In this document: piece after piece, positions 31,042 through 54,635 of the stretch | Numbering within the stretch: position 1 is the stretch's first letter | Layout: every line of letters begins with the position of its first letter | Assembly: GCA_907163375.1 (NCBI GenBank) | Contig: CAJQUW010009220.1 | Coordinates: 78,324-142,323, forward strand | Reading direction: 5' to 3' | DNA from: Prostheceraeus crozeri | Taxonomy: Eukaryota > Platyhelminthes > Polycladida > Euryleptidae | DNA length: 64,000 bases | The notes under the pieces: model-generated | Database searches by the model: none | What the model saw: only the letters and a program-made list of their open reading frames with translations | Told to the model about the DNA's origin: nothing | Position numbers and translations under genes: made by a program

Positions 31042-31094
31042 AGTAGTAAGCAAGTGACAAATACTGGATAGCGCAAGATGGCCGCCGTCGTGGC

Positions 31095-31275
31095 TGAGTC
31101 CCCCCCCCCCTCTGGCACGGCAGAGTGTCGTGGTCGGCCGCCGTGGTGCTTCGTGTCTGAGTCCCCCCCCCCTCTGGAACGACAGAGGTTGTGGTCTGTC
31201 GTGGTGTGCCGGCCGGGTGGGTCCACGTTCACAACATGTTCGCTGACGTCCCCCCCCCCCTCTGCAACAACAGAG
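31095..31275. repeat. Outer terminal C-tract/hairpin units, left arm
   Basis: There are three units, each a run of about 10-11 C followed directly by CTCTG-N6-CAGAG (CTCTGGCACGGCAGAG, CTCTGGAACGACAGAG, CTCTGCAACAACAGAG). The loop changes while the stem is kept. Mirror copies are at 54046-54230 and related ones at 59670-59830. The segment just outside reads CAAGATGGCCGCC in all three copies. Confidence 0.7.
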
Positions 31276-31425
31276 TGTGAGACTCGGGTGCGTGGGTCCG
31301 ACCGCCTGGTGGACGTGGGCGACCGTCTAGGTTGACGTGGGCGACCGCCAGGATTAGTCTTGAGGCTATAGTGTGTGATGTTTTTGGTGCAATCTGCTGA
31401 ATGTTGGGTTGTAAAATGGGTTGTT

Positions 31426-31690
31426 TCGAGTGGAAGGAGTGGTCGGATGAGAAAACGGAGGTCAGATTCGGATTCAGCGTGAAATTCTGCATCGGTAGGG
31501 TGAGTTTCAAGGCAATCGGCGAGAAAAACTGTTTCTTCAAAATTTTGACATAGAATGTGGGACGTTTTGGTGTGTAGCGCCCAAACGAAGCATCGGATGA
31601 GAAAACGGAGTCCAGATTCGGAATCTACGTGAAATTTTGGGTTAGGAAGGATGTTTCCAGCGAAATCGGAGAGAAAAAATTTTCGGCTGA
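31426..31690. repeat. Two diverged 125-bp repeats inside the left terminal zone
   Basis: GGATGAGAAAACGGAG followed by TCAGATTCGGA occurs twice (about 31445 and 31591), each followed by a related CGTGAAATT block. The mirrored pair is in the right arm at about 53650-53900. No gene is supported. Confidence 0.5.
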
Positions 31691-32900
31691 CGTCCCCCCC
31701 CCCCCTCTGGACAGCTTGCTTCGATTTTGGCTTCTAGTGGACGGATTTTGTCGTGCGATAGCTCGTTTGAAAGCTAAGAGTGAGACAAATTCAGTGAAAC
31801 AATCGGCTTGTTCCTATCTGTCTTCGTTCAAAAGTTAGAGCGGTTACAAGATTTTAGGTCGGAGCTCGCTTACCTGAAAAAATCCTAAGTGTCAGAGTGA
31901 CTTTGTATGGGTAAAATTTTGAAAATTTTCCAAAGTGTGGAATTTCGACCTGGGACCGTCACCAAAACATTTTTCATCAAATTTCACTGACCTCCCCCCC
32001 CCCCGACAACAATCTTCTAACTTTGGTTCTAGTGGACGGATTTTGTCTTACAGCTACTCGTTTGAAAGAGGAGAAAAAACTGCTCGACAACATTTTTTGT
32101 TGCGAGTCAATCGGACCAGCCGTTCACAAGTTAGAGCGGTTACAAGATTTTAGGTCGGAGCTCGCTCACCTGAAAAATCCTAAGTGTCAGAGTGACTTTG
32201 TATGGGTAAAAATTTGAAAATTTTCCAAAGTGTGGAATTTCGACCTGGGACCGTCACCAAAACATTTTTCATCAAATTTCACTGACCTCCCCCCCCCCTC
32301 TGGACAGCTTGCTTCGATTTTGGCTTCTAGTGGACGGATTTTGTCGTGCGATAGCTCGTTTGAAAGCTAAGAGTGAGACAAATTCAGTGAAACAATCGGC
32401 TTGTTCCTATCTGTCTTCGTTCAAAAGTTAGAGCGATTACAAGATTTTAGGTCGGAGCTCGCTTACCTGAAAAAATCCTAAGTGTCAGAGTGACTTTGTA
32501 TGGGTAAAATTTTGAAAATTTTCCAAAGTGTGGAATTTCGACCTGGGACCGTCACCAAAACATTTTTCATCAAATTTCACTGACCTCCCCCCCCCCTCTG
32601 GACAGCTTGGTTCGATTTTGGCTTCTAGTGGACGGATTTTGTCGTGCGATAGCTCGTTTGAAAGCTAAGAGTGAGACAAATTCAGTGAAACAATCGGCTT
32701 GTTCCTATCTGTCTTCGTTCAAAAGTTAGAGCGGTTACAAGATTTTAGGTCGGAGCTCGCTTACCTGAAAAAATCCTAAGTGTCAGAGTGACTTTGTATG
32801 GGTAAAATTTTGAAAATTTTCCAAAGTGTGGAATTTCGACCTGGGACCGTCACCAAAACATTTTTCATCAAATTTCGCTGACGTCCCCCCCCCCCTCGTT
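31690..32900. repeat. Tandem array of about 300-bp C-tract units, left arm
   Basis: Four units are separated by five C tracts of 8-12. Every unit keeps one half (from AGTTAGAGCG to ATTTCACTGACC before the C run). The other half is either type 1 (GCTTGCTTCGATTTTGG) or type 2 (CAATCTTCTAACTTTGG). The order here is 1-2-1-1. Frames inside are repeat-derived and not called as genes. Confidence 0.75.
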
Positions 32901-33186
32901 CGGACAAAATTTCTTGAAACAAACTTTGGTTAAGGTCCCAGGTCAAAATTCGGAAGTTTTAAATTTTTCAAAATTTTCACCACACTGGAGCTCTCACACT
33001 TAGGAATTTTTTCACTTGTGGCATGTTACATGGACATGTGCTGGCGGACCAACTTCCCGTGGTCATATGAGAATGGTTCAGGTGTCATATTGTAAAGAAT
33101 GATGAGACAAATCGTTTGCAACAAACCGGATGTCGCTACGATGAATACTTTCGGAGATAGAGCCATTTTAAGTTTTCTTCCGAGCA

Positions 33187-33194
33187 TATATAAA
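33187..33194 (+). promoter_or_regulatory. TATA box of gene A, left arm
   Basis: TATATAAA stands about 45 bp before a strong 5' splice donor (GACGAG/GTAAGC, intron from 33236). This suggests a short non-coding leader exon. The same box and donor are at 51240-51247 (minus) and 61238-61245. Confidence 0.7.
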
Positions 33195-33235
33195 CCCCCG
33201 ACAACGTAAGTCTGATCACTTCATCGAAAGACGAG

Positions 33236-34111
33236 GTAAGCGACGGTCGTCGCTCTGAGCTCCCGATATCGGGTGCAAAGGACTCTATCTTTTGAAGTAG
33301 GCAAGCTATCTTGCTACTTCAAAGTTTGTATGATAGAGTTTGATAGTGTCTTTACTACTGATAAAATTTTTTAAAAGTAGTATGAGTAGTAAAATGCGGA
33401 ATTTTTTAAAAATTCTTAATTTTCACTTTTTTCAAAGTTTTAACATATAGACTAAGGTTTTCAAGTATCCTGAGTTCAAATCTGCTATCAGATTTGAAAT
33501 TTAACTAAGTCTAAGGCAGCTTTGAGGGGTTAGATCCCAGCTACTGATCACTACCTTTGACTCGGCGTTCCTGTTACCACTTCGGGGCAGTGACAATGAT
33601 GTCTTCAGCTGTAAAGAGCGGGTATCGGGGAAGATCTCTCACTTCCCTAGTGATCGGTACAAGGCCTTCGGGCTGTCGACGGGATCGAGTGCCACTCACT
33701 ACACTCACATCTATCATTCCTCACTAAGTGTTGATATTATGTTGAATGTTGACTAAGTTGAATGTTGAATGATGATATTATGTTCTAGGCTGTATACTAC
33801 ATTCAAATCTGCTATCAGAAATTTAACTAAGGCAGCTTTGAGGGGTTAGATCCCAGCTACTGATCACTACCTTTGACTCGGCGTTCCTGTTACCACTTCG
33901 GGGCAGTGACAATGATGTCTTTAGCTGTAAAGAGCGGGTATCGGGGAAGATCTCTCACTTCCCTAGTGATCGGTACAAGGCCTTCGGGCTGTCGACGGGA
34001 TCGAGTGCCACTCACTACACTCACATCTATCATTCCTGACTAAGTGTAATGCTTTAGGAATATGACTGTACTACATGATTTAAAACTTATACTAATTTCA
34101 TTATCTTACAG
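33236..34111 (+). other. Leader intron of gene A, left arm
   Basis: Donor GTAAGC at 33236 and acceptor TTATCTTACAG ending at 34111 flank an 876-nt intron before the ATG at 34140. It contains two tandem copies of the conserved element described next. The right arm intron (51198-50669) and the degraded copy (61287-61849) have one copy each. Confidence 0.6.
33477..34050 (+). ncRNA. Tandem pair of conserved leader-intron elements
   Basis: About 245 bp beginning CAAATCTGCTATCAG and ending near CATCTATCATTCC is present at 33477-33720 and again at 33804-34050. Single copies are at 50728-50955 (minus) and 61530-61770. The core is nearly unchanged between copies and includes GGCCTTCGGGCT, a short stem closed by a UUCG loop, and other GC-rich blocks. 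Such conservation in an intron suggests a structured RNA or a cis element. No known RNA family was recognised; transcription is unproven. Confidence 0.3.
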
Positions 34112-34139
34112 TTAACGAGAAATCTCAGTAACGACAAAA

Positions 34140-35375
34140 ATGGTCAATAACGATAGAAACAAAAAATTTCACATCAAAATGTGCTCTTGTGGACGAATCA
34201 ACCGCCGAGACGGTCTCAGGGACCACATAAGGAAGGCAGGGGCCGACCACATGGTTATCCTGAATAGGGTTGCCTGTGTGAAGTGCAGGGTGCTGTTGGT
34301 TGTTGGGCAGGAGGCCGAGTTTTATCGGAGGCATGGTGAGTGTGTAGGAGGGTTGGTGACTGATTTGAGATTTACACAGTTGATTGTGGAAGAGAGGGAG
34401 CGAATGTTGGCGAATGTTGCGAATGTTGTTGAGAATGTTGTTGAGAATGCTAGTGGGAATGTTGTTGAGAATGCTAGTGGGAATGCTGTGGAGAATGCTA
34501 GTGGGAATGCTGTGGAGAATGAGGTAGAGAATGCTGTGGCCGGTTTGAAGGCTGACAAGTGGCGGAAGAGAGTGTTAGAGAGTGATGATGAGGATGATGT
34601 GGATTTGGATAGGGAGCGAGTGAGGAAGTGTGTGAGGAAGTTGAGCTCTTCGTCATCGGAGGTATCCAATATTGTTATTAGCGACCCCCCGAAGAGCTCA
34701 TCTTCCCCAATAGTGAAGGGTGGTGGGGTACGGAAGCAGTCGGCGCGGTGGGATGAGGACATGGAAAAGAAGCATGTGTCGCAGCAAGCGGCACATGCTT
34801 TGTTGGTAGATCGCTACGAAAGTTTGAGGAAGGTGAATGAGAGAACGTTGAGTGAGTTGAGTGAGCTGAAAATGAAGGAGTTGAAATGTAAGGAGGTGGC
34901 AGATGAGAATATCCGTATGAGGCGTGTTGTGAAAGAGTTGAAGGAGAATGTGCGAGTGTTGGAAGACAAGAATGATGAGTGTGAGAAGAGGGCGAGTGCT
35001 GCGGAGAGGAGAATGGGAGAGGCAGAAGCGAAGTTTGAGGAGATGATGAAGGAGATGAGTGTGTTGAGAGCGAGGAATGTTGAGTTGGAGAGGACTGTGG
35101 CTCGGCGGGGTGATGAGAGGCAGGCGTGTGAGAAGTTGGAGCGCATGAGGGATGAGTGGGAGCGTGTGAATGAGGATCGCTTGTTTGAATTCCACATCCC
35201 TATTCGGGACAATCATTTGGCCGGCGAAGTATTAGTAAATAAAAGCCTCGACGAGTCCATCCTATGTTACAACGGTCATCCGAGCAAGAAGTGTCTGCAT
35301 GCCAGCCTGAGAATGCGCGGCCATCTCCATAAATTTTCGATTCGGAAACGCGCGAGACTACCTAAGGATGACTAA
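34140..35375 (+). CDS. Gene A, left arm: zinc-finger/coiled-coil protein, 411 aa
   Basis: The N-terminus has two likely zinc sites: C15-x-C17...H29...H37, then C46-x2-C49...H65-x2-C68. Residues about 90-135 are a tandem repeat of VENASGN-type units. An acidic DESDEDD-like and Ser-rich stretch follows, then a long Lys/Glu coiled coil (about 215-350). The C-terminus has another Cys/His cluster (C376, H380, C385, H387, H395, H397) and a basic tail. This architecture suggests a nucleic-acid-binding dimer, perhaps a regulator or packaging/tegument protein; no family was recognised. It is spliced upstream, and a 60-nt intron starts 4 nt after the stop. The first 300 residues differ clearly from the right-arm copy, while the rest is identical. 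Confidence 0.75.
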   Translation: MVNNDRNKKFHIKMCSCGRINRRDGLRDHIRKAGADHMVILNRVACVKCRVLLVVGQEAEFYRRHGECVGGLVTDLRFTQLIVEERERMLANVANVVENVVENASGNVVENASGNAVENASGNAVENEVENAVAGLKADKWRKRVLESDDEDDVDLDRERVRKCVRKLSSSSSEVSNIVISDPPKSSSSPIVKGGGVRKQSARWDEDMEKKHVSQQAAHALLVDRYESLRKVNERTLSELSELKMKELKCKEVADENIRMRRVVKELKENVRVLEDKNDECEKRASAAERRMGEAEAKFEEMMKEMSVLRARNVELERTVARRGDERQACEKLERMRDEWERVNEDRLFEFHIPIRDNHLAGEVLVNKSLDESILCYNGHPSKKCLHASLRMRGHLHKFSIRKRARLPKDD

Positions 35376-35379
35376 CTTG

Positions 35380-35439
35380 GTAAGTGAAAAGCAAATAAGA
35401 TAGTATATCCTATTCTAATACATATCATTTTCATTGCAG
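35380..35439 (+). other. 60-nt intron just after the gene A stop
   Basis: A consensus donor GTAAGT and acceptor TTTTCATTGCAG enclose 60 nt. The same intron is at 49397-49456 (minus) and, altered, at about 63043-63105. Conservation of both ends in three copies supports splicing of the 3' UTR. Confidence 0.65.
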
Positions 35440-35473
35440 ATCTTTGCCCGCCTTCACCACCCCATCAATTTAC

Positions 35474-35612
35474 TCCCGAGAACGAACCATCGGCTCTCTT
35501 AAGGGCCACCTAGGGGCAAGACATGATAGAACCTCCACGCGGTTTGCCCTGGGCAGTCTTCGGACTGGCGAATACTATCATTAAGTTGAATCTGCTATCA
35601 GTCAACTTGAAC
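35474..35612. repeat. Conserved 140-bp element R, copy 1
   Basis: It begins CCCGAGAACGAACC and ends with an inverted repeat AAGTTGA...TCAACTT around ATCTGCTATCAG. Copies are at 35998-36134, 48702-48838, 49224-49362, 63142-63282 and 63622-63760. Four of the six copies are followed by a TATATAA promoter: copy 1 and its mirror before gene B, and both copies in the degraded element. This copy reads CCTAGG where others read CCATGG. Confidence 0.7.
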
Positions 35613-35680
35613 ATTATGCAGTCGATTGCTATCCCTGAAGCATTCTGATTCGCTGTTGAGCAATTCATTGTTGAAAACCC

Positions 35681-35688
35681 TATATAAG
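35681..35688 (+). promoter_or_regulatory. TATA box of gene B, left arm
   Basis: TATATAAG lies 41 bp before the ATG of gene B and 69 bp after element R. It is repeated at 49148-49155 (minus) and 63829-63836. Confidence 0.65.
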
Positions 35689-35728
35689 CCAGAAGATTGT
35701 AGCGCTTCTCATTCAATTTGAAGTCACG

Positions 35729-35983
35729 ATGGAAGCGACATCTGCCGACAACATTCCCGTCTTCACCGATGAAGACAACGGCATTCCCAACTTCATCATC
35801 CTCGACGAGTGGGATGAAGAGGATGAGAAGAAGGGGAAGATCAAGAAGATCATTTGGACGGATGGGGTGTGGACTCCTAAAACCACCCGCATCCGAAAGG
35901 TGCCAGATGCACCACCACGGCTGAGGCGGTATAGGGTATACGAGAACCTAAGCGTCATACCCATTGACTATTCCAGTCAATAG
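35729..35983 (+). CDS. Gene B, left arm: small acidic/basic protein, 84 aa
   Basis: The first half is acidic (TDEDNG, DEWDEEDEKKGK) and the second basic and Pro-rich (KTTRIRKVPDAPPRLRRYR). There are no Cys residues and no membrane segment. A TATA box at a fitting distance and an identical right-arm copy (one Glu-to-Asp change) support it as a real gene. A dead copy at 63877 has a stop at codon 2. Function unknown; the charge split would suit a small adaptor or nucleic-acid chaperone, which is speculation. Confidence 0.65.
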   Translation: MEATSADNIPVFTDEDNGIPNFIILDEWDEEDEKKGKIKKIIWTDGVWTPKTTRIRKVPDAPPRLRRYRVYENLSVIPIDYSSQ

Positions 35984-35989
35984 TCAAAT

Positions 35990-36364
35990 TCACGTCCCCG
36001 AGAACGAACCATCGGCTCTCTTAAGGGCCACCATGGGGCAAGACATGATAGAACCTCCTCGCGGTTTGCCCTGGGCAGTCTTCGGACTGGCGAATACTAT
36101 CATTAAGTTGAATCTGCTATCAGTCAACTTGAACGTTGCAAATGAAGTTCGGTGTAATACTTCCTTTCGACGGGCGTTCCTGTAAAGGGCGGCGGTGAAA
36201 CCCGTAGCTATGCATACCGCAAGGGACATTCGGCAATGGTCAATCTTGTTAAACCTCTCTGCGTCATGTTTGCAAGTGATTGCCTCTGTCTCAACGTAGT
36301 ATGCATTCGCGCCAGGGCGACATTTAGCCAACTGTCGAAGGTTGCCTAAAACTTTCCATTGCAT
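35990..36364 (-). CDS. Outward-facing open frame, 124 aa, overlapping element R (left arm)
   Basis: The frame starts at an ATG outside R and ends inside R. Its mirror at 48472-48846 is open too, with one residue changed. The first 70 residues look protein-like (Cys, Tyr, basic residues). The last 45, encoded by R, are also open in this frame in the copy at 63622-63760, but are interrupted by TAG in the R copy at 35474. There is no TATA box nearby, and it opposes the other genes. It could be real, or R could be a non-coding element whose complement is open by chance. Confidence 0.3.
   Translation of the reverse strand: MQWKVLGNLRQLAKCRPGANAYYVETEAITCKHDAERFNKIDHCRMSLAVCIATGFTAALYRNARRKEVLHRTSFATFKLTDSRFNLMIVFASPKTAQGKPRGGSIMSCPMVALKRADGSFSGT
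35998..36134. repeat. Conserved 140-bp element R, copy 2
   Basis: Same sequence as copy 1 with CCATGG at the internal site. No TATA box follows it closely; the next 340 bp (36140-36480) hold no supported plus-strand gene. Confidence 0.7.
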
Positions 36365-36480
36365 ACGTTATGAGAACCATGAGTTCTACCTGTCTCTATC
36401 ACTGAGACGAATTGATGAATGGAATGAAATGGGAGGACACTCACGCGCCACACGCAACATAACACACTTCTCTCTTCCGT

Positions 36481-37020
36481 AGTCTAACAAGCTCTTTACA
36501 CATGGATCGCAGTCGATTGCTATCCCTGTATCAGAAGTGTAAGCTATCTTAATTTATTTGACACTATTTTATCTACCATCATCGTCCATATGAAATGTTT
36601 TTAGATTTACAAGTTAGACTAAGCGTGCTACTATTTCCAAATGAAAAAGTATACATGGTTAAATCATCCACTTAAGCCCATCCATAGTCTAACAAGCTCT
36701 TTACACATGGATCGCAGTCGATTGCTATCCCTGTATCAGAAGTGTAAGCTATCTTAATTTATTTGACACTATTTTATCTACCATTATCACCCATATGAAA
36801 TGTTTTTAGATTTACAAGTTAGACTAAGCGTGCTACTATTTCCAAATGAAAAAGTATACATGGTTAAATCATCCACTTAAGCCCATCCATAGTCTAACAA
36901 GCTCTTTACACATGGATCGCAGTCGATTGCTATCCCTGTATCAGAAGTGTAAGCTATCTTAATTTATTTGACACTATTTTATCTACCATCATCGTCCATA
37001 TGAAATGTTTTTAGATTTAC
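36481..37020. repeat. 205-bp tandem repeat, 2.6 copies (left arm)
   Basis: Units start AGTCTAACAAGCTC at 36481, 36686 and 36891. The third is cut at 37020 by the gene C promoter. Each unit contains GCAGTCGATTGCTATCCCTG, also found after some R copies, and GTTAGACTAAGCG, also found at the edges of the AT-rich array. The right arm has only 1.6 copies (48021-48355), which accounts for the 205-bp shift in arm symmetry. Confidence 0.85.
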
Positions 37021-37023
37021 AAA

Positions 37024-37138: not shown

Positions 37139-37737
37139 ATGGCAGTAGCCGGTGAAGTAACGATATCTACAACGTCAGCATCAACGTCAGCATCAACGTC
37201 AGCATCTATTTTCTTCCCATTGCTTCGGGATCGAGTACCTGCAATGGTGTATCGAGATATTCCCCTTTTCGCTGGGATGTGATCCTATCAGATAAGATAT
37301 CATGTGTGGTGGTCAAGCGGGCTGTGGTACAGACAGAGACTCACATATTTCCAACTACGATTGACACTTTTTATTTTACTAAATCACCTGTATATCGTAT
37401 ACATTCAAGTACGAATGACCCACCGGAGAAGCCACTATACATGGAACGAGATGTGCCTATGTACGAAGGGGATGTAATTCTGGGGTACTCCCCTACAAGA
37501 ATGATGATACGTCGTGCACCAGGATGGGTGGATGATGGAAGGTGGATGGGGGCGTATGTGGAAGTTGAACATCATTCAAAGCCACTCATGGACCCACCGT
37601 ATGAGACGCAACGATTCCGTCTAGATGGTGAAGCATGGATTCGTGTCATTCCCAACGGATGGTACAGAGACATTGATGAAGAGAGAGGTGATTATAAGTC
37701 CTTTAGTGAAATAAGTGGAGAATTTGTATTTCAATGA
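37139..37737 (+). pseudogene. Gene C, left arm: frameshifted copy of the 199-aa protein
   Basis: Compared with the intact copy at 47303-47902, one G is missing in the run near 37273-37277 (GCTGGGATG against GCTGGGGATG). The reading frame breaks after about 45 codons, and the remaining open part starts at 37279. All other bases match closely. A single homopolymer loss can be a real mutation or a sequencing error. AATAAA at 37771 would serve as poly(A) signal. Confidence 0.7.
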
Positions 37738-37896: not shown

Positions 37897-38451
37897 ATGA
37901 GTGAGGTTCCAGAGTGTGAGGTTCCAGAGTGTGAGGTACGTTATCCAATACGTCATTGGAAAGGTAAATTTTGGCAATATCACCGTACCATTCCATTATT
38001 TCATGGAGACAAGATAATTTCAGAGACGAAGAACTGTGTAGTGATATCACGCCGTAAGATAGAATTGGAAAATGAAATAATTCCAACGTATATTGACACA
38101 TTCTATTTTGAAGTAACACCGACATATCAGCATCCAATTACAACAACGGTGGAGAAACCGAAAGACTGTCTTTATTTTGAACGTGATTACATTCCAATGT
38201 ATGAAGGAGATGTAGTTATATCATGGAATCCTACAGAAACATGTATTCGACGTTCTCCAGGTAGAAAGCGTGAAGATGGAGGAGGTTTGGCACGGGCTAT
38301 GTATATAGTATATCAACATACTCCAGAAGTGTATAAACGACCGAAATTGACACGACGATTTCGTTTGGATATTGAGAAGAAGGTGTGGGTTCAGATTCTT
38401 CATACTGATACATTGACTGACATTGAATGGACGGGTGGACAAACGAGGTGA
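37897..38451 (+). CDS. Gene H, left arm: paralogue of gene C, 184 aa
   Basis: The start was taken at 37897, because the longer frame has no ATG before it. After a short EVPEC repeat the protein shares its plan with gene C: a motif IPLFHGDKIIS...CVVISRR, then IPTYIDTFYFEVTP, a Pro-rich linker, CLYFERDYIPMYEGDVV...CIRRSPG, and a final RRFRLD...VWVQIL block. The P-L/M-F/Y-x-G-D motif appears twice per protein, indicating an internally duplicated beta-rich fold. There is no signal peptide or membrane segment. No known family; a structural or host-interaction role is conceivable but unproven. Confidence 0.75.
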   Translation: MSEVPECEVPECEVRYPIRHWKGKFWQYHRTIPLFHGDKIISETKNCVVISRRKIELENEIIPTYIDTFYFEVTPTYQHPITTTVEKPKDCLYFERDYIPMYEGDVVISWNPTETCIRRSPGRKREDGGGLARAMYIVYQHTPEVYKRPKLTRRFRLDIEKKVWVQILHTDTLTDIEWTGGQTR

Positions 38452-38456: not shown

Positions 38457-38512
38457 GGGTCCCCTGAAGGGGACCCATGAAGGGATCGGGTCCTTTGAGA
38501 GATGTATATAAG
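38457..38512 (+). promoter_or_regulatory. Promoter of gene E: perfect GGGTCCCC/GGGGACCC palindrome plus TATA
   Basis: GGGTCCCCTGAAGGGGACCC (38457-38476) begins 6 bp after the gene H stop codon. GGGATCGGGTCC follows, then TATATAAG at 38505-38512. The right-arm mirror is identical. Confidence 0.7.
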
Positions 38513-38543
38513 AGTGGATGAAATGAGTGTCACAATCATAATC

Positions 38544-38783
38544 ATGGTAGAAACAAGAGAAGAGTTGAGAGTAAGGCAGCGTGAGGAGATGAAGACCATC
38601 AAACAAATGATTGAAAGATATAAGAGGAGAGCCTATAAATCGAAGAATCCAGAGAAGATCAGAGAGTGTGAGGACACATGCGACTTTGTGCTGAAAGCGA
38701 CGATAGTGAGTCATCAACGACAATCAAATTATTGGAGAGATGGATTGTGGAAGGGACCCGATAGAGGACCCGATACCTTTTAG
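38544..38783 (+). CDS. Gene E, left arm: small charged helical protein, 79 aa
   Basis: The frame is open further upstream, but that part contains the TATA box, so the ATG at 38544 is preferred (32 bp after TATA). The product is strongly helical and charged (VETREELRVRQREEMKTIK, then basic YKRRAYKSKNPEK) with two Cys (RECEDTCDF). Its last nine residues (GPDRGPDTF) are encoded by the GGACCCGAT boxes of the next promoter. No family recognised. Mirror copy at 46257-46496 is identical. Confidence 0.6.
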   Translation: MVETREELRVRQREEMKTIKQMIERYKRRAYKSKNPEKIRECEDTCDFVLKATIVSHQRQSNYWRDGLWKGPDRGPDTF

Positions 38784-39511: not shown

Positions 39512-39667
39512 ATGCCATGTTATAGACGAAGACGAAGACGTCAGAGAGGGGGTATTCTTTTACCTCTAGCGGGAATGCTTGGTAAACATTTTGCAGGAAC
39601 TATTACAAAGGGTGTTTCACGACATATAGCAAGGAAAGCCATTAGACGTATTAAGCGAAAGCGCTAA
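39512..39667 (+). CDS. Gene F, left arm: Arg-rich pX-like core peptide, 51 aa
   Basis: The product starts MPCYRRRRRRQRGGILLPLA, continues with a Gly-rich hydrophobic stretch, and ends in a second basic cluster (KAIRRIKRKR). A basic block followed directly by RGGIL and a hydrophobic segment is the hallmark of the small adenovirus core peptide pX (mu) and of pX-like proteins in adintoviruses. I infer a DNA-condensing virion core peptide. It was too short to be listed by usual ORF cut-offs. It precedes gene G by 23 bp. An identical copy is at 45372-45527. Confidence 0.7.
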   Translation: MPCYRRRRRRQRGGILLPLAGMLGKHFAGTITKGVSRHIARKAIRRIKRKR

Positions 39668-39690: not shown

Positions 39691-39858
39691 ATGACAATGC
39701 CATATCGTACTAGACGAAGACGAAGACGAAGACGACGTCAGAGGGGTGGTCTTATCATTTCAATTTTACCACGTGTCCTTAATAAAGTAATGAAAGTAAT
39801 GACACATCGAGATCTAGGTGCAGGTCCTACATTGCTGCATAGATTTGGTGACGAATAA
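39691..39858 (+). CDS. Gene G, left arm: second Arg-rich pX-like peptide, 55 aa
   Basis: From ATG at 39691 (or 39697) the product has nine successive Arg, then QRGGLIISILPRVLNKVMKV and a short polar tail. It shares the Arg block and QRGG-hydrophobic motif with gene F, so the two are tandem paralogues. The CGAAGACGAAGACGA coding repeat could expand or shrink by slippage. A role in DNA condensation or membrane action is inferred from the pX similarity. Stop at 39856-39858; the AATAAA-rich array starts right after. Confidence 0.65.
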   Translation: MTMPYRTRRRRRRRRRQRGGLIISILPRVLNKVMKVMTHRDLGAGPTLLHRFGDE

Positions 39859-39875
39859 GATTTACTAGTTTGCAA

Positions 39876-42513: not shown

Positions 42514-42605
42514 GAATCAAACTTGTATCATGTCAGGACTACACACAATTGATTTACAAAACATGCTTTGAATACTCATACGATGAAGTTTTTACTTTCA
42601 TTTAT
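42434..42605. repeat. Centre of the palindrome
   Basis: Left-arm sequence ends TCCTGACATGATA at 42513, and its complement TATCATGTCAGGA begins at 42526. The spacer is 12 nt. Pairing is perfect for at least 80 bp on each side. The short spacer resembles a fused pair of telomeres or a hairpin-processed end more than a normal inverted insertion. Confidence 0.85.
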
Positions 42606-45164: not shown

Positions 45165-45180
45165 TGCAAACTAGTAAATC

Positions 45181-45348
45181 TTATTCGTCACCAAATCTAT
45201 GCAGCAATGTAGGACCTGCACCTAGATCTCGATGTGTCATTACTTTCATTACTTTATTAAGGACACGTGGTAAAATTGAAATGATAAGACCACCCCTCTG
45301 ACGTCGTCTTCGTCTTCGTCTTCGTCTAGTACGATATGGCATTGTCAT
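45181..45348 (-). CDS. Gene G, right arm: Arg-rich pX-like peptide
   Basis: Mirror of 39691-39858 with the same sequence: nine Arg, QRGGLII, hydrophobic helix, short polar end. The stop is 17 bp from the array edge motif. Confidence 0.65.
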   Translation of the reverse strand: MTMPYRTRRRRRRRRRQRGGLIISILPRVLNKVMKVMTHRDLGAGPTLLHRFGDE

Positions 45349-45371: not shown

Positions 45372-45527
45372 TTAGCGCTTTCGCTTAATACGTCTAATGG
45401 CTTTCCTTGCTATATGTCGTGAAACACCCTTTGTAATAGTTCCTGCAAAATGTTTACCAAGCATTCCCGCTAGAGGTAAAAGAATACCCCCTCTCTGACG
45501 TCTTCGTCTTCGTCTATAACATGGCAT
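45372..45527 (-). CDS. Gene F, right arm: Arg-rich pX-like core peptide
   Basis: Mirror of 39512-39667, identical in protein sequence (basic block, RGGILLPLAG, second basic cluster). See the left copy for reasoning. Confidence 0.7.
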   Translation of the reverse strand: MPCYRRRRRRQRGGILLPLAGMLGKHFAGTITKGVSRHIARKAIRRIKRKR

Positions 45528-45661: not shown

Positions 45662-46159
45662 TCATGAGAAAACACTGTTCATATCAATGGCATGCACCAA
45701 CGCTTCATCCACCAAATCCACCTCACGTCGTATATTTGATTCTGATGAAATGCGTCCATGAAACTGTCGATGCGGCAATTGTGGGATAAGCATACGTAAT
45801 CCCAATGGGACCACCGGAGATCCTGCCCTCGAGTTAGGTGGATTATTCTCCTTCTCCTTCTCCTTTTCGTACGTCACCCACTCTTCATCCGTCATTTCAC
45901 TAAAATTCGTCCGACTGGAAGATGGTGAATTTAAAAATCTGTCCAACTGTGTAATGTCTGGTGAAAACCTTGGAGGAAGATTGTCCATCGGGGTAGGCGT
46001 CACCAACTCTGGAAGTCCTTCATCAGTCAATTCACTCAAATCGGGCCACGATCCCCATCCAGACGGAAGATCAGTTGGCCAGTCTTCCTCGTCGCTCTCT
46101 GGCACTAACACTTCGGGAATGCGAATCCGTAAAGGTTGGATCATCGTTACGTCGGGCAT
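45662..46159 (-). CDS. Gene D, right arm: acidic Trp-rich protein, 165 aa, intact
   Basis: The start was chosen at the ATG at 46159 downstream of the TATA box. The N-terminal third is acidic with spaced Trp (ESDEEDWPTDLPSGWGSWPD), resembling a transactivation or docking segment. A second acidic patch (FSEMTDEEW) and a KEKEKENNPPNS linker follow. The C-terminal part (VPLGLRMLIPQLPHRQFHG) is more hydrophobic and conserved-looking. No family identified. With F and G downstream it forms a group of small, probably late, virion-type genes; this is inference from order and the pX similarity. Confidence 0.7.
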   Translation of the reverse strand: MPDVTMIQPLRIRIPEVLVPESDEEDWPTDLPSGWGSWPDLSELTDEGLPELVTPTPMDNLPPRFSPDITQLDRFLNSPSSSRTNFSEMTDEEWVTYEKEKEKENNPPNSRAGSPVVPLGLRMLIPQLPHRQFHGRISSESNIRREVDLVDEALVHAIDMNSVFS

Positions 46160-46205: not shown

Positions 46206-46285
46206 ATTTATATACAGTTTTTAGTGGATCGGGTCCTCTAAAAGGTATCAGGTCCTCTAAAAGGTATCGGGTCCTCTATCGGGTC
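46206..46285 (-). promoter_or_regulatory. Promoter of gene D, right arm
   Basis: Mirror of the left promoter: TATATAAA near 46207-46214 and GGACCC/T boxes up to 46285 on the minus strand. Confidence 0.65.
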
Positions 46286-46496
46286 CCTTCCACAATCCAT
46301 CTCTCCAATAATTTGATTGTCGTTGATGACTCACTATCGTCGCTTTCAGCACAAAGTCGCATGTGTCCTCACACTCTCTGATCTTCTCTGGATTCTTCGA
46401 TTTATAGGCTCTCCTCTTATATCTTTCAATCATTTGTTTGATGGTCTTCATCTCCTCACGCTGCCTTACTCTCAACTCTTCTCTTGTTTCTACCAT
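46257..46496 (-). CDS. Gene E, right arm: small charged helical protein, 79 aa
   Basis: Identical to the left copy; start chosen at 46496 for the same TATA-distance reason. Its end overlaps the gene D promoter boxes. Confidence 0.6.
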   Translation of the reverse strand: MVETREELRVRQREEMKTIKQMIERYKRRAYKSKNPEKIRECEDTCDFVLKATIVSHQRQSNYWRDGLWKGPDRGPDTF

Positions 46497-46527
46497 GATT
46501 ATGATTGTGACACTCATTTCATCCACT

Positions 46528-46583
46528 CTTATATACATCTCTCAAAGGACCCGATCCCTTCATGGGTCCCCTTCAGGGGACCC
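46528..46583 (-). promoter_or_regulatory. Promoter of gene E, right arm
   Basis: Mirror of the left promoter with the 20-bp GGGTCCCC...GGGGACCC palindrome at 46564-46583 and TATATAAG at 46528-46535. Confidence 0.65.
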
Positions 46584-46588: not shown

Positions 46589-47143
46589 TCACCTCGTTTG
46601 TCCACCCGTCCATTCAATGTCAGTCAATGTATCAGTATGAAGAATCTGAACCCACACCTTCTTCTCAATATCCAAACGAAATCGTCGTGTCAATTTCGGT
46701 CGTTTATACACTTCTGGAGTATGTTGATATACTATATACATAGCCCGTGCCAAACCTCCTCCATCTTCACGCTTTCTACCTGGAGAACGTCGAATACATG
46801 TTTCTGTAGGATTCCATGATATAACTACATCTCCTTCATACATTGGAATGTAATCACGTTCAAAATAAAGACAGTCTTTCGGTTTCTCCACCGTTGTTGT
46901 AATTGGATGCTGATATGTCGGTGTTACTTCAAAATAGAATGTGTCAATATACGTTGGAATTATTTCATTTTCCAATTCTATCTTACGGCGTGATATCACT
47001 ACACAGTTCTTCGTCTCTGAAATTATCTTGTCTCCATGAAATAATGGAATGGTACGGTGATATTGCCAAAATTTACCTTTCCAATGACGTATTGGATAAC
47101 GTACCTCACACTCTGGAACCTCACACTCTGGAACCTCACTCAT
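46589..47143 (-). CDS. Gene H, right arm: paralogue of gene C, 184 aa
   Basis: Identical in protein to the left copy. Two PLF/PMY-x-GD motifs and the FYFEVTP and RRFRLD blocks are present. The start is at 47143, with TATAAATA upstream at about 47177-47184. Confidence 0.75.
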   Translation of the reverse strand: MSEVPECEVPECEVRYPIRHWKGKFWQYHRTIPLFHGDKIISETKNCVVISRRKIELENEIIPTYIDTFYFEVTPTYQHPITTTVEKPKDCLYFERDYIPMYEGDVVISWNPTETCIRRSPGRKREDGGGLARAMYIVYQHTPEVYKRPKLTRRFRLDIEKKVWVQILHTDTLTDIEWTGGQTR

Positions 47144-47302: not shown

Positions 47303-47902
47303 TCATTGAAATACAAATTCTCCACTTATTTCACTAAAGGACTTATAATCACCTCTCTCTTCATCAATGTCTCTGTACCATCCGTTGGGAATGACACGAA
47401 TCCATGCTTCACCATCTAGACGGAATCGTTGCGTCTCATACGGTGGGTCCATGAGTGGCTTTGAATGATGTTCAACTTCCACATACGCCCCCATCCACCT
47501 TCCATCATCCACCCATCCTGGTGCACGACGTATCATCATTCTTGTAGGGGAGTACCCCAGAATTACATCCCCTTCGTACATAGGCACATCTCGTTCCATG
47601 TATAGTGGCTTCTCCGGTGGGTCATTCGTACTTGAATGTATACGATATACAGGTGATTTAGTAAAATAAAAAGTGTCAATCGTAGTTGGAAATATGTGAG
47701 TCTCTGTCTGTACCACAGCCCGCTTGACCACCACACATGATATCTTATCTGATAGGATCACATCCCCAGCGAAAAGGGGAATATCTCGATACACCATTGC
47801 AGGTACTCGATCCCGAAGCAATGGGAAGAAAATAGATGCTGACGTTGATGCTGACGTTGATGCTGACGTTGTAGATATCGTTACTTCACCGGCTACTGCC
47901 AT
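47303..47902 (-). CDS. Gene C, right arm: beta-rich virus-like protein, 199 aa, intact
   Basis: After an N-terminal Ser/Thr/Ala repeat (STSASTSAS, encoded by GACGTTGATGCT units) the protein has YRDIPLFAGDVILSDKISC, HIFPTTIDTFYF, then MERDVPMYEGDVILGYSP and IRRAPG, and ends with a QRFRLDGEAWIRVIPNGWY block. These match gene H position by position, so C and H arose by duplication. The doubled P-x-F/Y-x-G-D-x-I motif suggests two similar beta modules. It is the only intact copy of C in the window. No known family; not membrane-bound as far as seen. Confidence 0.75.
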   Translation of the reverse strand: MAVAGEVTISTTSASTSASTSASIFFPLLRDRVPAMVYRDIPLFAGDVILSDKISCVVVKRAVVQTETHIFPTTIDTFYFTKSPVYRIHSSTNDPPEKPLYMERDVPMYEGDVILGYSPTRMMIRRAPGWVDDGRWMGAYVEVEHHSKPLMDPPYETQRFRLDGEAWIRVIPNGWYRDIDEERGDYKSFSEISGEFVFQ

Positions 47903-48852: not shown

Positions 48853-49107
48853 CTATTGACTGGAATAGTCAATGGGTATGACGCTTAGGTTGTCATATAC
48901 CCTATACCGCCTCAGCCGTGGTGGTGCATCTGGCACCTTTCGGATGCGGGTGGTTTTAGGAGTCCACACCCCATCCGTCCAAATGATCTTCTTGATCTTC
49001 CCCTTCTTCTCATCCTCTTCATCCCACTCGTCGAGGATGATGAAGTTGGGAATGCCGTTGTCTTCATCGGTGAAGACGGGAATGTTGTCGGCAGATGTCG
49101 CTTCCAT
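48853..49107 (-). CDS. Gene B, right arm: small acidic/basic protein, 84 aa
   Basis: Identical to the left copy except one Glu-to-Asp change near the C-terminus. TATATAAG at 49148-49155 lies 41 bp upstream of the ATG. Confidence 0.65.
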   Translation of the reverse strand: MEATSADNIPVFTDEDNGIPNFIILDEWDEEDEKKGKIKKIIWTDGVWTPKTTRIRKVPDAPPRLRRYRVYDNLSVIPIDYSSQ

Positions 49108-49223
49108 CGTGACTTCAAATTGAATGAGAAGCGCTACAATCTTCTGGCTTATATAGGGTTTTCAACAATGAATTGCTCAACAGCGAATCAGAATGCTTCA
49201 GGGATAGCAATCGACTGCATAAT

Positions 49224-49362
49224 GTTCAAGTTGACTGATAGCAGATTCAACTTAATGATAGTATTCGCCAGTCCGAAGACTGCCCAGGGCAAACCGCGTG
49301 GAGGTTCTATCATGTCTTGCCCCTAGGTGGCCCTTAAGAGAGCCGATGGTTCGTTCTCGGGA
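49224..49362. repeat. Conserved 140-bp element R, right arm copy 1
   Basis: Mirror of 35474-35612, again with CCTAGG at the internal site. Confidence 0.7.
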
Positions 49363-49460
49363 GTGACGTGATGGGGTGGTGAAGGCGGGCAAAGATCTGC
49401 AATGAAAATGATATGTATTAGAATAGGATATACTATCTTATTTGCTTTTCACTTACCAAG

Positions 49461-50651
49461 TTAGTCATCCTTAGGTAGTCTCGCGCGTTTCCGAATCGAA
49501 AATTTATGGAGATGGCCGCGCATTCTCAGGCTGGCATGCAGACACTTCTTGCTCGGATGACCGTTGTAACATAGGATGGACTCGTCGAGGCTTTTATTTA
49601 CTAATACTTCGCCGGCCAAATGATTGTCCCGAATAGGGATGTGGAATTCAAACAAGCGATCCTCATTCACACGCTCCCACTCATCCCTCATGCGCTCCAA
49701 CTTCTCACACGCCTGCCTCTCATCACCCCGCCGAGCCACAGTCCTCTCCAACTCAACATTCCTCGCTCTCAACACACTCATCTCCTTCATCATCTCCTCA
49801 AACTTCGCCTCTGCATCTCTCATTCTTCTCTCCGCAGCACTCGCCCTCTTCTCACACGCATCATTCTTCTCTTCCAACTCTCGCGTCTTATTCTTCAAAT
49901 CAGTCACAACACGCCTCATTCTAATGTTTTCATCCGCCACCTCCTTCGACTTCAAATCCTTCTTTTTCAACTCATCCAACTCCTTCACAACTTCATCCTT
50001 CACTTTCTTCAAACTCTCAAACTTATTCACCAACAACTCATGCGCCATCTGCTGCGAAACATGCCTCTTCTCTTCATCCTTCAACCACCTCGCCGACTGC
50101 ACACGAATCCCACCACTCTTCACTTTTGGGGAAGATGAGCTCTTCGGGGGGTCGGTGATGACGATGTCGCACACCTCCGATGACGAAGAGCTCAACTTCC
50201 TCACACGCTTCCTCACACGCTCCCTATCTAAATCCACATCATCCTCATCATCACTCTCAAGCACTCTCTTCCGCTGCTCAATCTCACCCTCCAACGACGC
50301 AACCGCTCTCGCCAACTCATCATTCTCAACAACATTCTCAACAACATTCTCAACAACATTCTCAACAACATTCGCAACATTCGCCAACATTCGCTCCCTC
50401 TCTTCCACAATCAACTGTGTAAATCTCAAATCAGTCACTAAACCACCACTACAGTCAGCATGCACTCTGTAGAAACGCGCCTCATCCTCATCACCCTTCA
50501 GCACTCTACACTTCACGCACGCAACCCTATTCAAGACAATCATGTGGCCGGTGCCCGCCTTCTTGACGTGAGCCTTGGCGTCCGCACTGCGATTTATACG
50601 ACCGCACACACACATTTTGATATGATACTTTCGATTTTTGTCGTTGGCCAT
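49461..50651 (-). CDS. Gene A, right arm: zinc-finger/coiled-coil protein, 396 aa
   Basis: The start was chosen at the ATG at 50651, 17 nt after the leader-intron acceptor; the longer open frame reads intron. The domain order is as in the left copy: CxC...H...H and CxxC...H..C zinc sites, an acidic SDDEDD stretch, coiled coil, C-terminal Cys/His cluster and basic tail. The first 290 or so residues are a different allele-like version: ANDKNRKYHIK start, VENVVEN four-residue repeat, an extra ARAVASLEGEIEQ helix and many substitutions in the coiled coil. This version resembles the degraded copy at 61869 more than the left arm. After the AEAKFEEMM block both arms are identical. Confidence 0.75.
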   Translation of the reverse strand: MANDKNRKYHIKMCVCGRINRSADAKAHVKKAGTGHMIVLNRVACVKCRVLKGDEDEARFYRVHADCSGGLVTDLRFTQLIVEERERMLANVANVVENVVENVVENVVENDELARAVASLEGEIEQRKRVLESDDEDDVDLDRERVRKRVRKLSSSSSEVCDIVITDPPKSSSSPKVKSGGIRVQSARWLKDEEKRHVSQQMAHELLVNKFESLKKVKDEVVKELDELKKKDLKSKEVADENIRMRRVVTDLKNKTRELEEKNDACEKRASAAERRMRDAEAKFEEMMKEMSVLRARNVELERTVARRGDERQACEKLERMRDEWERVNEDRLFEFHIPIRDNHLAGEVLVNKSLDESILCYNGHPSKKCLHASLRMRGHLHKFSIRKRARLPKDD

Positions 50652-50668
50652 GCCTGATTTATCGTTAG

Positions 50669-51198
50669 CTGTAAGATAATGAAATTTGTATAAGTTTGGA
50701 ATCATGTAGTACAGTCATATTCCTAAAGAGTGTAGTGAGTGGCACTCGATCCCGTCGACAGCCCGAAGGCCTTGTACCGATCACTAGGGAAGTGAGAGAT
50801 CTTCCCCGATACCCGCTCTTTACAGCTGAAGACATCATTGTCACTGCCCCGAAGTGGTAACAGGAACGCCGAGTCAAAGGTAGTGATCAGTAGCTGGGAT
50901 CTAACCCCTCAAAGCTGCCTTAGACTTAGTTAAATTTCAAATCTGATAGCAGATTTGAACTCAGGATACTTGAAAACCTTAGTCTATATGTTAAAACTTT
51001 GAAAAAAGTGAAAATTAAGAATTTTTAAAAAATTCCGCATTTTACTACTCATACTACTTTTAAAAAATTTTATCAGTAGTAAAGACACTATCAAACTCTA
51101 TCATACAAACTTTGAAGTAGCAAGATAGCTTGCCTACTTCAAAAGATAGAGTCCTTTGCACCCGATATCGGGAGCTCAGAGCGACGACCGTCGCTTAC
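50669..51198 (-). other. Leader intron of gene A, right arm, with one conserved element
   Basis: Donor GTAAGC at 51198 and acceptor ending at 50669 mirror the left arm. It carries one copy of the conserved element (50728-50955) with its GGCC-UUCG-GGCU hairpin. TATA at 51240-51247. Confidence 0.55.
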
Positions 51199-51534
51199 CT
51201 CGTCTTTCGATGAAGTGATCAGACTTACGTTGTCGGGGGTTTATATATGCTCGGAAGAAAACTTAAAATGGCTCTATCTCCGAAAGTATTCATCGTAGCG
51301 ACATCCGGTTTGTTGCAAACGATTTGTCTCATCATTCTTTACAATATGACACCTGAACCATTCTCATATGACCACGGGAAGTTGGTCCGCCAGCACATGT
51401 CCATGTAACATGCCACAAGTGAAAAAATTCCTAAGTGTGAGAGCTCCAGTGTGGTGAAAATTTTGAAAAATTTAAAACTTCCGAATTTTGACCTGGGACC
51501 TTAACCAAAGTTTGTTTCAAGAAATTTTGTCCGA

Positions 51535-53640
51535 ACGAGGGGGGGGGGGACGTCAGCGAAATTTGATGAAAAATGTTTTGGTGACGGTCCCAGGTCGAAA
51601 TTCCACACTTTGGAAAATTTTCAAAATTTTACCCATACAAAGTCACTCTGACACTTAGGATTTTTTCAGGTAAGCGAGCTCCGACCTAAAATCTTGTAAC
51701 CGCTCTAACTTTTGAACGAAGACAGATAGGAACAAGCCGATTGTTTCACTGAATTTGTCTCACTCTTAGCTTTCAAACGAGCTATCGCACGACAAAATCC
51801 GTCCACTAGAAGCCAAAATCGAAGCAAGCTGTCCAGAGGGGGGGGGGGGAGGTCAGTGAAATTTGATGAAAAATGTTTTGGTGACGGTCCCAGGTCGAAA
51901 TTCCACACTTTGGAAAATTTTCAAAATTTTACCCATACAAAGTCACTCTGACACTTAGGATTTTTCAGGTGAGCGAGCTCCGACCTAAAATCTTGTAACC
52001 GCTCTAACTTGTGAACGGCTGGTCCGATTGACTCGCAACAAAAAATGTTGTCGAGCAGTTTTTTCTCCTCTTTCAAACGAGTAGCTGTAAGACAAAATCC
52101 GTCCACTAGAACCAAAGTTAGAAGATTGTTGTCGGGGGGGGGGAGGTCAGCGAAATTTGATGAAAAATGTTTTGGTGACGGTCCCAGGTCGAAATTCCAC
52201 ACTTTGGAAAATTTTCAAAATTTTACCCATACAAAGTCACTCTGACACTTAGGATTTTTTCAGGTAAGCGAGCTCCGACCTAAAATCTTGTAATCGCTCT
52301 AACTTTTGAACGAAGACAGATAGGAACAAGCCGATTGTTTCACTGAATTTGTCTCACTCTTAGCTTTCAAACGAGCTATCGCACGACAAAATCCGTCCAC
52401 TAGAAGCCAAAATCGAAGCAAGCTGTCCAGAGGGGGGGGGGGGGAGGTCAGTGAAATTTGATGAAAAATGTTTTGGTGACGGTCCCAGGTCGAAATTCCA
52501 CACTTTGGAAAATTTTCAAATTTTTACCCATACAAAGTCACTCTGACACTTAGGATTTTTCAGGTGAGCGAGCTCCGACCTAAAATCTTGTAACCGCTCT
52601 AACTTGTGAACGGCTGGTCCGATTGACTCGCAACAAAAAATGTTGTCGAGCAGTTTTTTCTCCTCTTTCAAACGAGTAGCTGTAAGACAAAATCCGTCCA
52701 CTAGAACCAAAGTTAGAAGATTGTTGTCGGGGGGGGGGGGGGGAGGTCAGTGAAATTTGATGAAAAATTTTTTGGTGACGGTCCCAGGTCGAAATTCCAC
52801 ACTTTGGAAAATTTTCAAAATTTTACCCATACAAAGTCACTCTGACACTTAGGATTTTTTCAGGTAAGCGAGCTCCGACCTAAAATCTTGTAACCGCTCT
52901 AACTTTTGAACGAAGACAGATAGGAACAAGCCCGATGTTTCACAATTTTGTCTCACTCTTAGCTTTCAAACGAGCTATCGCACGACAAAATCCGTCCACT
53001 AGAAGCCAAAATTCGAAGCATTGTTGTCCAGAGGGGGGGGGGGGAGGTCAGTGAAATTTGATGAAAAATGTTTTGGTGACGGTCCCAGGTCGAAATTCCA
53101 CACTTTGGAAAATTTTCAAATTTTTACCCATACAAAGTCACTCTGACACTTAGGATTTTTTCAGGTGAGCGAGCTCCGACCTAAAATCTTGTAACCGCTC
53201 TAACTTGTGAACGGCTGGTCCGATTGACTCGCAACAAAAAAATGTTGTCGAGCAGTTTTTTCTCCTCTTTCAAACGAGTAGCTGTAAGACAAAATCCGTC
53301 CACTAGAACCAAAGTTAGAAGATTGTTGTCGGGGGGGGGGGGGGGGTCAGCGAAATTTGATGAAAAATGTTTTGGTGACGGTCCCAGGTCGAAATTCCAC
53401 ACTTTGGAAAATTTTCAAAATTTTACCCATACAAAGTCACTCTGACACTTAGGATTTTTTCAGGTAAGCGAGCTCCGACCTAAAATCTTGTAACCGCTCT
53501 AACTTTTGAACGAAGACAGATAGGAACAAGCCGATTGTTTCACTGAATTTGTCTCACTCTTAGCTTTCAAAAGAGCTATCGCACGACAAAATCCGTCCAC
53601 TAGAAGCCAAAATCGAAGCAAGCTGTCCAGAGGGGGGGGG
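51535..53640. repeat. Tandem array of about 300-bp G-tract units, right arm
   Basis: Seven units lie between eight G tracts of about 8-15. Types 1 and 2 alternate strictly from the outside inward (1-2-1-2-1-2-1), forming a 600-bp dimer. One unit near 52930-53030 carries several small changes. The left arm has four units only. Confidence 0.8.
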
Positions 53641-54045
53641 TGGACGTCAGCCGAAAATTTTTTCTCTCCGATTTCGCTGGAAACATCCTTCCTAACCCAA
53701 AATTTCACGTAGATTCCGAATCTGGACTCCGTTTTCTCATCCGATGCTTCGTTTGGGCGCTACACACCAAAACGTCCCACATTCTATGTCAAAATTTTGA
53801 AGAAACAGTTTTTCTCGCCGATTGCCTTGAAACTCACCCTACCGATGCAGAATTTCACGCTGAATCCGAATCTGACCTCCGTTTTCTCATCCGACCACTC
53901 CTTCCACTCGAAACAACCCATTTTACAACCCAACATTCAGCAGATTGCACCAAAAACATCACACACTATAGCCTCAAGACTAATCCTGGCGGTCGCCCAC
54001 GTCAACCAGGCGGTCGGACCCAGTCACCCGAGTCTCACACTCTGT

Positions 54046-54230
54046 CGTTGCAGAGGGGGGGGGGGGGGACGTCAGCGAACATGTTGTGAACGTGGACCCA
54101 CCCGGCCGGCACACCACGACAGACCACAACCTCTAGCGTTCCAGAGGGGGGGGGGGGGGGGGACTCAGACACGAAGCACCACGGCGGCCGACCACGACAC
54201 TCTGCCGTGCCAGAGGGGGGGGGGGGACGC
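54046..54230. repeat. Outer terminal G-tract/hairpin units, right arm
   Basis: Three units of CTCTG-N6-CAGAG followed by G runs of up to 17 (54147-54163). Together with the matching units at 31095 they mark the ends of the element. Runs this long could fold into G-quadruplexes. Confidence 0.7.
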
Positions 54231-54635
54231 AGCCACGACGGCGGCCATCTTGCGCGGTCCAGAAGTGGAGTTTTGCTTACTACTAATATTGATAAAAAAA
54301 TTCATGAAAGAGTTATCGAACAATTGTTTACCGAGTAATAAAAATATACAAATATAATGTTTTAATATTTTATTTTTTATTATCAGCTTTAATTTTGTCT
54401 ATTTTTTTAAAATATAATATTTGAATTTTGTGGTAACATTGGTATACAGCAAAAACATTTTACTTTTACTGAACAAAATTATTTTTTTATTGCTTATTGT
54501 TGTTTGACATCTTTTCGTTAAAATCACTCAAATTTTCTCGTTTAAAAAATTTTCTCGTATTAAGTTTTGTTTAATAAAAGTTTTGTCTAATAAAGTTTTT
54601 AGCTCTCTAAAAAAATTTTATCATCACTAAAAGTT

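Follow-up and report, generated by a model that had tools for sequence, protein, structure and literature searches.

A recurrent 23-kb palindrome with Polinton-type ends in the flatworm Prostheceraeus crozeri, and a possible fold-back stage in its spread

The palindrome and the genes in its arms

A 23-kb palindrome lies in the genome of the polyclad flatworm Prostheceraeus crozeri, in a stretch of 64,000 nucleotides referred to below as the window (contig CAJQUW010009220.1 of assembly GCA_907163375.1, positions 78,324 to 142,323; C7654 in our numbering of contigs). It is one copy of a family of palindromes in this assembly, which are probably satellites of a Polinton/adintovirus-like element. 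The arms of the window copy are ~11.5 kb (31042-42513) and ~11.8 kb (42526-54284) long and are separated by 12 nt (42514-42525), and the sequences flanking the two arms are unlike. These coordinates and unlike flanks agree with a first-pass annotation of the window, as does its description of a virus-like palindrome embedded in host DNA. The features are listed in Table 1.

When the arms are compared in 250-column bins, they are 97.6-100% identical with two exceptions, the outermost bin (identity 0.95) and a stretch at ~33.9-35.1 kb (bin identity 0.69-0.93). The 3591 bp directly adjoining the spacer contain no difference between the arms. The 298-bp and 205-bp tandem repeats are unequal in copy number between the arms, and an extra piece at ~33.7-34.05 kb is found only in the left arm.

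All eight named open reading frames (ORFs; G1-G6, X1, and X2) run towards the centre in each arm. The outer part of the arm (arm coordinates 1-5981) contains long DNA segments that are 78-99% identical to the left end of Polintons in the same genome, while the right end of these Polintons has only ~790 bp in common with the arm. The inner ~5.5 kb (arm coordinates 5982-11473) consists of G3-G6, X1, X2, and an AT-rich block; blastn at E 1e-5 against pieces of three Polintons found nothing similar to it. G1 occurs as two allele classes that have diverged in their N-terminal parts but are nearly identical at the C-terminus, and by eye each class has one of two metagenomic relatives (P0015 and P0016). 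The pairwise ratio of nonsynonymous to synonymous substitution rates of G1 is 0.15 between the right arm and the Polinton and 0.34 between the two arms, in keeping with purifying selection.

No replication or capsid genes were recognised in the arm ORFs, as the first-pass annotation had stated. Profile searches with Pfam and PHROGs gave nothing above cut-off or convincing for the arm proteins, and the strongest were a match of G5 to Cpf1_PI-like that fell below cut-off (E 0.0013) and one of X2 to REV (E 0.03). Two hallmarks of Polintons, the protein-primed family B DNA polymerase (PolB) domain and the rve integrase, were not recognised in the arm ORFs. Capsid, protease, and ATPase genes were not recognised by profile either, although a very diverged capsid could escape such a search. 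Among 5.8 billion proteins, G4 matched only the protein of the window itself, and a PDB search with the G3/G4 alignment returned three matches, none with E below 0.29. Two Polinton core-protein ORFs are weak matches to X2 (E 0.006 and 0.02), and X1, which gave no match in Pfam, resembles the pX-type core peptides of adenoviruses. Nothing was found in phage records, in IMG/VR scans with G4, G1, the flank ORF, and the terminus pattern, or in Rfam and tRNA scans.

The AT-rich blocks lie between the genes and the centre and show a strong strand bias. AATAAA is their most frequent 6-mer and occurs 66 times on the strand that runs towards the centre and never on the opposite strand, against a Markov expectation of 8.7 (standard deviation 2.9). 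The left half of the central stretch gives 127 versus 0 in the palindrome on contig C1115, whose AT block is longer and only ~76% like that of the window, and 71 versus 2 in C12703, genes included. There is about an even chance that these arrays act as a transcription barrier between the mirror-image genes, and the strand bias could also be a by-product of the repeat unit.

Table 1 Features of the window (aa, amino acids)
Feature	Position	Strand	Remark
Left outer terminus	31042..31086	+	Subtype AGTAGTAAGCAAGTGAC..., Polinton-type (AGT)2 end; same subtype at C650 left, C4444 both ends, C4006 right
Outer left arm, homologous to Polinton left end	31042..37022	+	Arm coordinates 1-5981; closes with 205-bp tandem array 36476-37022; blastn against pieces of three Polintons
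Terminal-zone 298-bp tandem repeats	31696..32894	+	4.0 copies
G1, left arm	34140..35375	+	411 aa; left-arm allele class; N-terminus of P0016 similar by eye
G2, left arm	35729..35983	+	84 aa; 96% identical to Polinton G2
G3, left arm	37139..37737	+	Frame interrupted by single-base difference; right-arm frame open
G4, left arm	37897..38451	+	184 aa
G5, left arm	38502..38783	+	93 aa
X1, left arm	39512..39667	+	51 aa; Arg-rich, RRRQRGGIL...
X2, left arm	39691..39858	+	55 aa; Arg-rich, RRRQRGGLI...
AT-rich tandem block, left arm	39859..42514	+	AATAAA 66 on +, 0 on -
12-nt spacer	42514..42525	.	Remnant of imperfect hairpin tip; ~27 nt lost relative to most other centres
Mirror AT-rich block, right arm	42526..45180	-	AATAAA 66 on -, 0 on +
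X2, right arm	45181..45348	-	
X1, right arm	45372..45527	-	
G6, right arm	45662..46159	-	165 aa; left-arm copy interrupted by single-base difference
G5, right arm	46257..46538	-	
G4, right arm	46589..47143	-	
G3, right arm	47303..47902	-	199 aa; G4 paralogue (42%)
G2, right arm	48853..49107	-	
G1, right arm	49461..50705	-	414 aa; right-arm allele class; 95% protein identity to Polinton G1
Terminal-zone 299-bp tandem repeats	51539..53640	-	7.0 copies
Right outer terminus	54240..54284	-	Subtype AGTAGTAAGCAAAACTCC..., same as Polinton ends at C13051, C6736, C5571
Left end of further Polinton-type copy	59617..64000	+	Cut by contig end; colinear with Polinton pieces, 91.6% over 2.2 kb

An integrated family and its companion Polintons

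The assembly (2.05 Gb, 14165 contigs) was searched for further copies. In these searches only the top-ranked candidates were scored; candidates are not confirmed copies, and the counts are not copy numbers. A 1.3-kb arm piece has 251 candidate places, and the best 40, which were scored, all round to 100% identity. Twenty of these 40 places are arranged in ten converging pairs, which lie on ten contigs. With a 201-bp query spanning the centre (175 candidates), the best 40 scored gave 36 distinct places matched across the entire centre, and contigs C2184 and C1207 match this query only from contig bases 8 and 10, respectively. A 100-bp terminus query gave 830 candidates, of which the best 40 were scored. 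Measured between their ends, the palindromes are 22.0 to 24.6 kb long. The palindrome is a recurrent mobile element found at dozens of sites, not a one-off. We found no palindromic Polinton among the open-licence papers searched, which does not establish novelty in print.

To characterise integration, 14 end pairs with both ends expected inside the contig were chosen from the arm-piece and terminus searches: 11 palindromes including the window copy, and three elements that are non-palindromic in the central stretch examined. C6699, C354, and C2918 were omitted, as an end was expected beyond the contig. The flanks agree exactly over 6 bp at 10 of the 14 end pairs. These are seven of the 11 palindromes (C1115 TACATG, C7083 AGTATG, C5509 GACGTG, C4444 TGAGCC, C4006 ATTAAG, C3127 TACAAG, and C2634 TACATG) and all three non-palindromic elements (C13051 TTTAGA, C6736 AATGTT, and C5571 GTTCTT). 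The common end of the palindromes, AGTAGTAAG..., is also the end of the Polintons in the same genome; it fits the (AGT)2//(ACT)2 motif and forms inverted terminal repeats. Vertebrate Mavericks have such ends together with 6-bp duplications (PMC8097293), and the family shows both, although the window copy lacks the duplication. The palindromes are integrated mobile elements. A single-molecule or library artefact is ruled out for the class as a whole by the duplications flanking seven palindromes, so the worry raised in the first-pass annotation no longer applies to the class; for the window copy it still stands as a possible mis-join. The annotation's suggestion of a terminal-repeat pair of a large virus was rejected, as the outer ends are integrated ends common to Polintons and the centre is internal.

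The three non-palindromic elements (24.1-25.4 kb) are companion Polintons and the presumed helper. An integrase ORF in C13051 (L044:822-2039) matches rve (PF00665, E 1e-10) and a chromodomain (PF00385, E 6e-7) above cut-off. According to PMC11071296, an integrase with a C-terminal chromodomain defines adintoviruses, and C13051 has an integrase of this type. Among 1115 candidates for the integrase gene in the genome, 15 of the best 40 scored tie for the top score, including C5571. A 1266-aa ORF is common to C13051 and C5571, and the equivalent frames are split in C6736. In C13051 it contains an endonuclease VII-like region and the motifs KNNSLFGKTMED and GGDTDSFF, which we take, by eye, to be polymerase motifs B and C. 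A PDB search with this ORF found zinc fingers only, and a search of phage records with it found nothing. C13051 also shows below-cut-off matches to a C48/C5-like protease, an A32-like ATPase, and a pX-like core protein (Adeno_PX). Searches for an adintovirus-type PolB and hexon in the companion element gave no polymerase or capsid match in Pfam, NCBIfam, or PDB. The first-pass annotation had expected the missing parts of the element to lie elsewhere, and Polintons with the same termini and with integrase and capsid-module genes are indeed present in the same assembly.

Several further observations concern the window and its flanks. Polintons C13051 and C5571 have a small ORF (MQTPNS...) between two copies of a 141-bp stretch; the window arm (35470-35620) has a single copy and lacks the intervening stretch, as if lost by recombination between the repeats. 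The Polinton-type left end at 59617-64000 is ~9% diverged from the window arms. The terminal zones (31078-31335, 54040-54240, and 59650-59830) start with GCAAGATGGCCGCC, which resembles a YY1-type site, and contain repeats of TGACGTC, or a similar motif, each followed by a long C-run. An ORF just beyond the right end (54832-55314) has 13 relatives on metagenomic contigs with up to 86% identity and is perhaps another virus-like insertion. To the left, a 404-aa ORF of a hAT-type transposase (27004-28218) matches PF04937 (E 2e-16), with the hAT dimerisation domain below cut-off. The left flank at 30700-30900 contains a dispersed repeat with 86 candidate places; among the best 40 scored, the 39 places besides the window are 81-88% identical over ~155-200 bp.

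Matching arms and the hairpin tip

The outermost ~615 bp of the arms were compared by counting substitutions and ignoring gaps. The seven palindromes with a duplication have 0, 0, 0, 0, 1, 4, and 10 differences between left and right arms, whereas the four without have 4, 13, 15, and 15 (Mann-Whitney p 0.0098). When the arms of the seven duplicated copies are re-paired among copies, the sum of differences rises from the 15 observed to a mean of 147 (p 0.0003). In C3127, C4444, C5509, and C7083, the arms are identical to the last end base.

The centres show a different pattern. The tip was examined in 22 centres in which it is intact, leaving aside C5509 and C4444 (centre outside the stretch examined) and C7083 and the window (tip deleted). 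These 22 centres contain an imperfect hairpin tip with 15-20 nt per side. The two sides of the tip differ in 21 centres, by substitution in 19 and by an indel at the turn only in C2634 and C12703; the sides in C5365 do not differ. All 33 substitutions are transitions, and the remaining differences are indels. The bases adjoining the tip are identical between the arms in all 22 centres (30-31 bp in 12 centres and 263-330 bp in 10). In a self-folded single strand, a transition between the arms would be a G-T or A-C mismatch, the kind of difference that a hairpin turn would preserve. The asymmetry of the tip beside identical arms fits a fold-back (hairpin) DNA stage. The 12-nt spacer is peculiar to the window copy, where most of the tip has been deleted; the centre of C7083 is deleted as well.

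A satellite with a possible fold-back stage

The arms have no recognised gene for an integrase, a polymerase, or a capsid, and we therefore read the palindromes as non-autonomous Polinton satellites. Polintons are regarded as integrated viruses. Taken as a whole, the proposal that the family consists of satellites of the Polinton/adintovirus-like element in the same genome and spreads by folding back is probable. Its firmest part is that the Polinton supplies enzymes in trans, which we consider highly likely: it would provide the integrase, the protein-primed polymerase, and perhaps the capsid. For the fold-back stage, the sequences tip the balance only slightly in favour. By folding on itself, one strand of the 23-kb palindrome would form an 11.5-kb hairpin duplex; there, arm-to-arm mismatches would be corrected, but not those in the turn. 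Copying through the hairpin would then restore the 23-kb duplex, which would integrate as a unit. The idea in the first-pass annotation of joined ends of linear viral genomes (dimer junctions) comes close to this model. The strand-specific AATAAA arrays may stop convergent transcripts from entering the mirror arm, so that no hairpin RNA would form. A role of X1 and X2 in packaging, to which their likeness to core peptides points, is a tentative suggestion. The complete scenario falls somewhat short of an even chance: a gene-bearing satellite that alternates between an 11.5-kb hairpin and a 23-kb duplex, uses the integrase and polymerase of its helper, enters the particles of that helper with DNA-condensing core peptides of its own, and is protected from double-stranded RNA by dozens of AATAAA poly(A) signals on one strand of each arm.

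Several observations weigh against this proposal. This analysis of sequence saw no hairpin molecule, transcript, or particle, and the homogenisation of the arms could also occur in the chromosome. The 1266-aa ORF taken as the polymerase did not match the DNA_pol_B_2 profile of Pfam, and a 426-aa ORF in C6736, presumed to encode the capsid, matched nothing in Pfam, NCBIfam, or PDB. Four of the 11 palindromes (C12703, C650, C6829, and the window copy) lack a duplication, and their arms match each other no more closely than after re-pairing (p 1.0); C4006 has a duplication yet carries ends of two subtypes (10 differences). The tip events are not independent, as one tip pair occurs in 12 of the 22 centres and there are few variable sites, and the indel in C2634 and C12703 hinges on where one places the turn. 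Close to the tip, each of ten copies has identical arms, but these copies have just three arm sequences, and 16 of 45 between-copy comparisons are also free of differences. Near-tip identity is therefore weak evidence, and the argument for arm matching is carried by the outer ends. C1115 is a gene-poor palindrome that retains the ends, the tip, the target-site duplication, and a 98.7% match to arm coordinates 4956-5577. The parts of it examined, outside which lay ~4.2 kb of the right arm, yielded no G1 and no G3-X2, so the satellite genes may be dispensable for spread.

In the window copy, the target-site duplication is missing, the two arms belong to different subtypes, and the tip is deleted. 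This copy probably combines halves of two separate insertions, joined either in the assembly or by recombination. Judging from sequence features, the chances are roughly balanced that it is an assembly chimaera of two satellite insertions joined through their near-identical cores. The two G1 allele classes and the mismatched arm ends in the window agree with this, and C12703, C650, and C6829 likewise combine a missing duplication with mismatched arms. C2184 and C1207 start near the centre, as if the assembly broke there. On the other hand, the duplication of C4006 with unlike ends implies that mixed arms can be genuine, and when the left flank was used as a query, the only full-length match was the window itself, with no sign of an allele that is empty or arranged otherwise. 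The same evidence would suit genuine ectopic recombination between two insertions, for which the many near-identical cores in the assembly offer opportunity; we hold this to be rather unlikely, as it requires a rearrangement at each of four of the 11 loci, and the present evidence does not separate it from mis-joining. In either case, unrelated halves appear to have been joined in the four copies without a duplication, and this would account for the G1 mosaic of the window too.

Two further explanations concern the family and dispense with an ongoing fold-back. The arms may have become alike once they were inserted, through ordinary gene conversion between them in the chromosome, with the tip spared in the turn and no hairpin needed. 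Human Y palindromes reach an arm similarity >99.9% through conversion (PMC3723533), and the tip pattern and identical arms are compatible with such a process. However, the arm piece scores equally in 39 other places among the best 40 of 251 candidates, so the insertions look young, and conversion would have to be fast to give end-to-end identity in C3127, C4444, C5509, and C7083. We regard this explanation as unlikely. Even less likely is that the family descends from a single old snap-back defective Polinton genome that has been inherited passively. Both ends of the palindrome correspond to the same (left) end of the helper through arm coordinates 1-5981, as in the snap-back genomes of adeno-associated virus (AAV), the nearest described parallel in form (PMC8235507). 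Content derived only from the helper is not what we found, since the inner 5.5 kb has no match in the pieces of three Polintons. In addition, the arms of C1115 still match each other despite its diverged AT block, and arms in the duplicated set are more alike within than between copies.

The palindromes share features with several known systems. With Polintons/Mavericks, including adintoviruses, they have in common the (AGT)2 ends, inverted terminal repeats, 6-bp duplications, and the left 6 kb with G1 and G2; they differ in being palindromic throughout, in having G3-G6, X1, and X2 of their own, and in that polymerase, integrase, capsid, protease, and ATPase were not recognised. Snap-back defective interfering genomes, which arise from adenovirus as well as AAV, also have both ends from one helper end and full-length self-complementarity, but the palindromes are integrated at dozens of places and carry genes absent from the helper pieces examined. 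Poxviruses and parvoviruses have hairpin-ended genomes or concatemer junctions, and the palindromes likewise show an imperfect palindromic junction and few transition mismatches beside perfect arms. In the palindromes, however, the putative hairpin is read from the asymmetry of the junction, and their outer ends are of the Polinton integration type instead of hairpins. Like virophages and satellite viruses, the palindromes would rely on a larger virus-like element and have small genes of their own, but no capsid gene was recognised and the ends are common with the helper. Foldback transposons are likewise non-autonomous, with very long inverted repeats and internal tandem repeats, and lack the Polinton ends, 6-bp duplications, and protein-coding arms seen here. 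The palindromes of the human Y chromosome have similar arms and differing centres, whereas the present elements are mobile, multi-copy, and flanked by target-site duplications.

Long palindromes are usually unstable. The palindrome described here appears to be successful as a mobile element, being present at dozens of sites, several of them with matching arms and flanking duplications. This suggests that Polintons have gene-carrying parasites of their own. With their matching arms and mismatched tip, the palindromes may preserve traces of a hairpin stage in nature, and the family allows a test of how convergent mirror-image genes avoid hairpin RNA.

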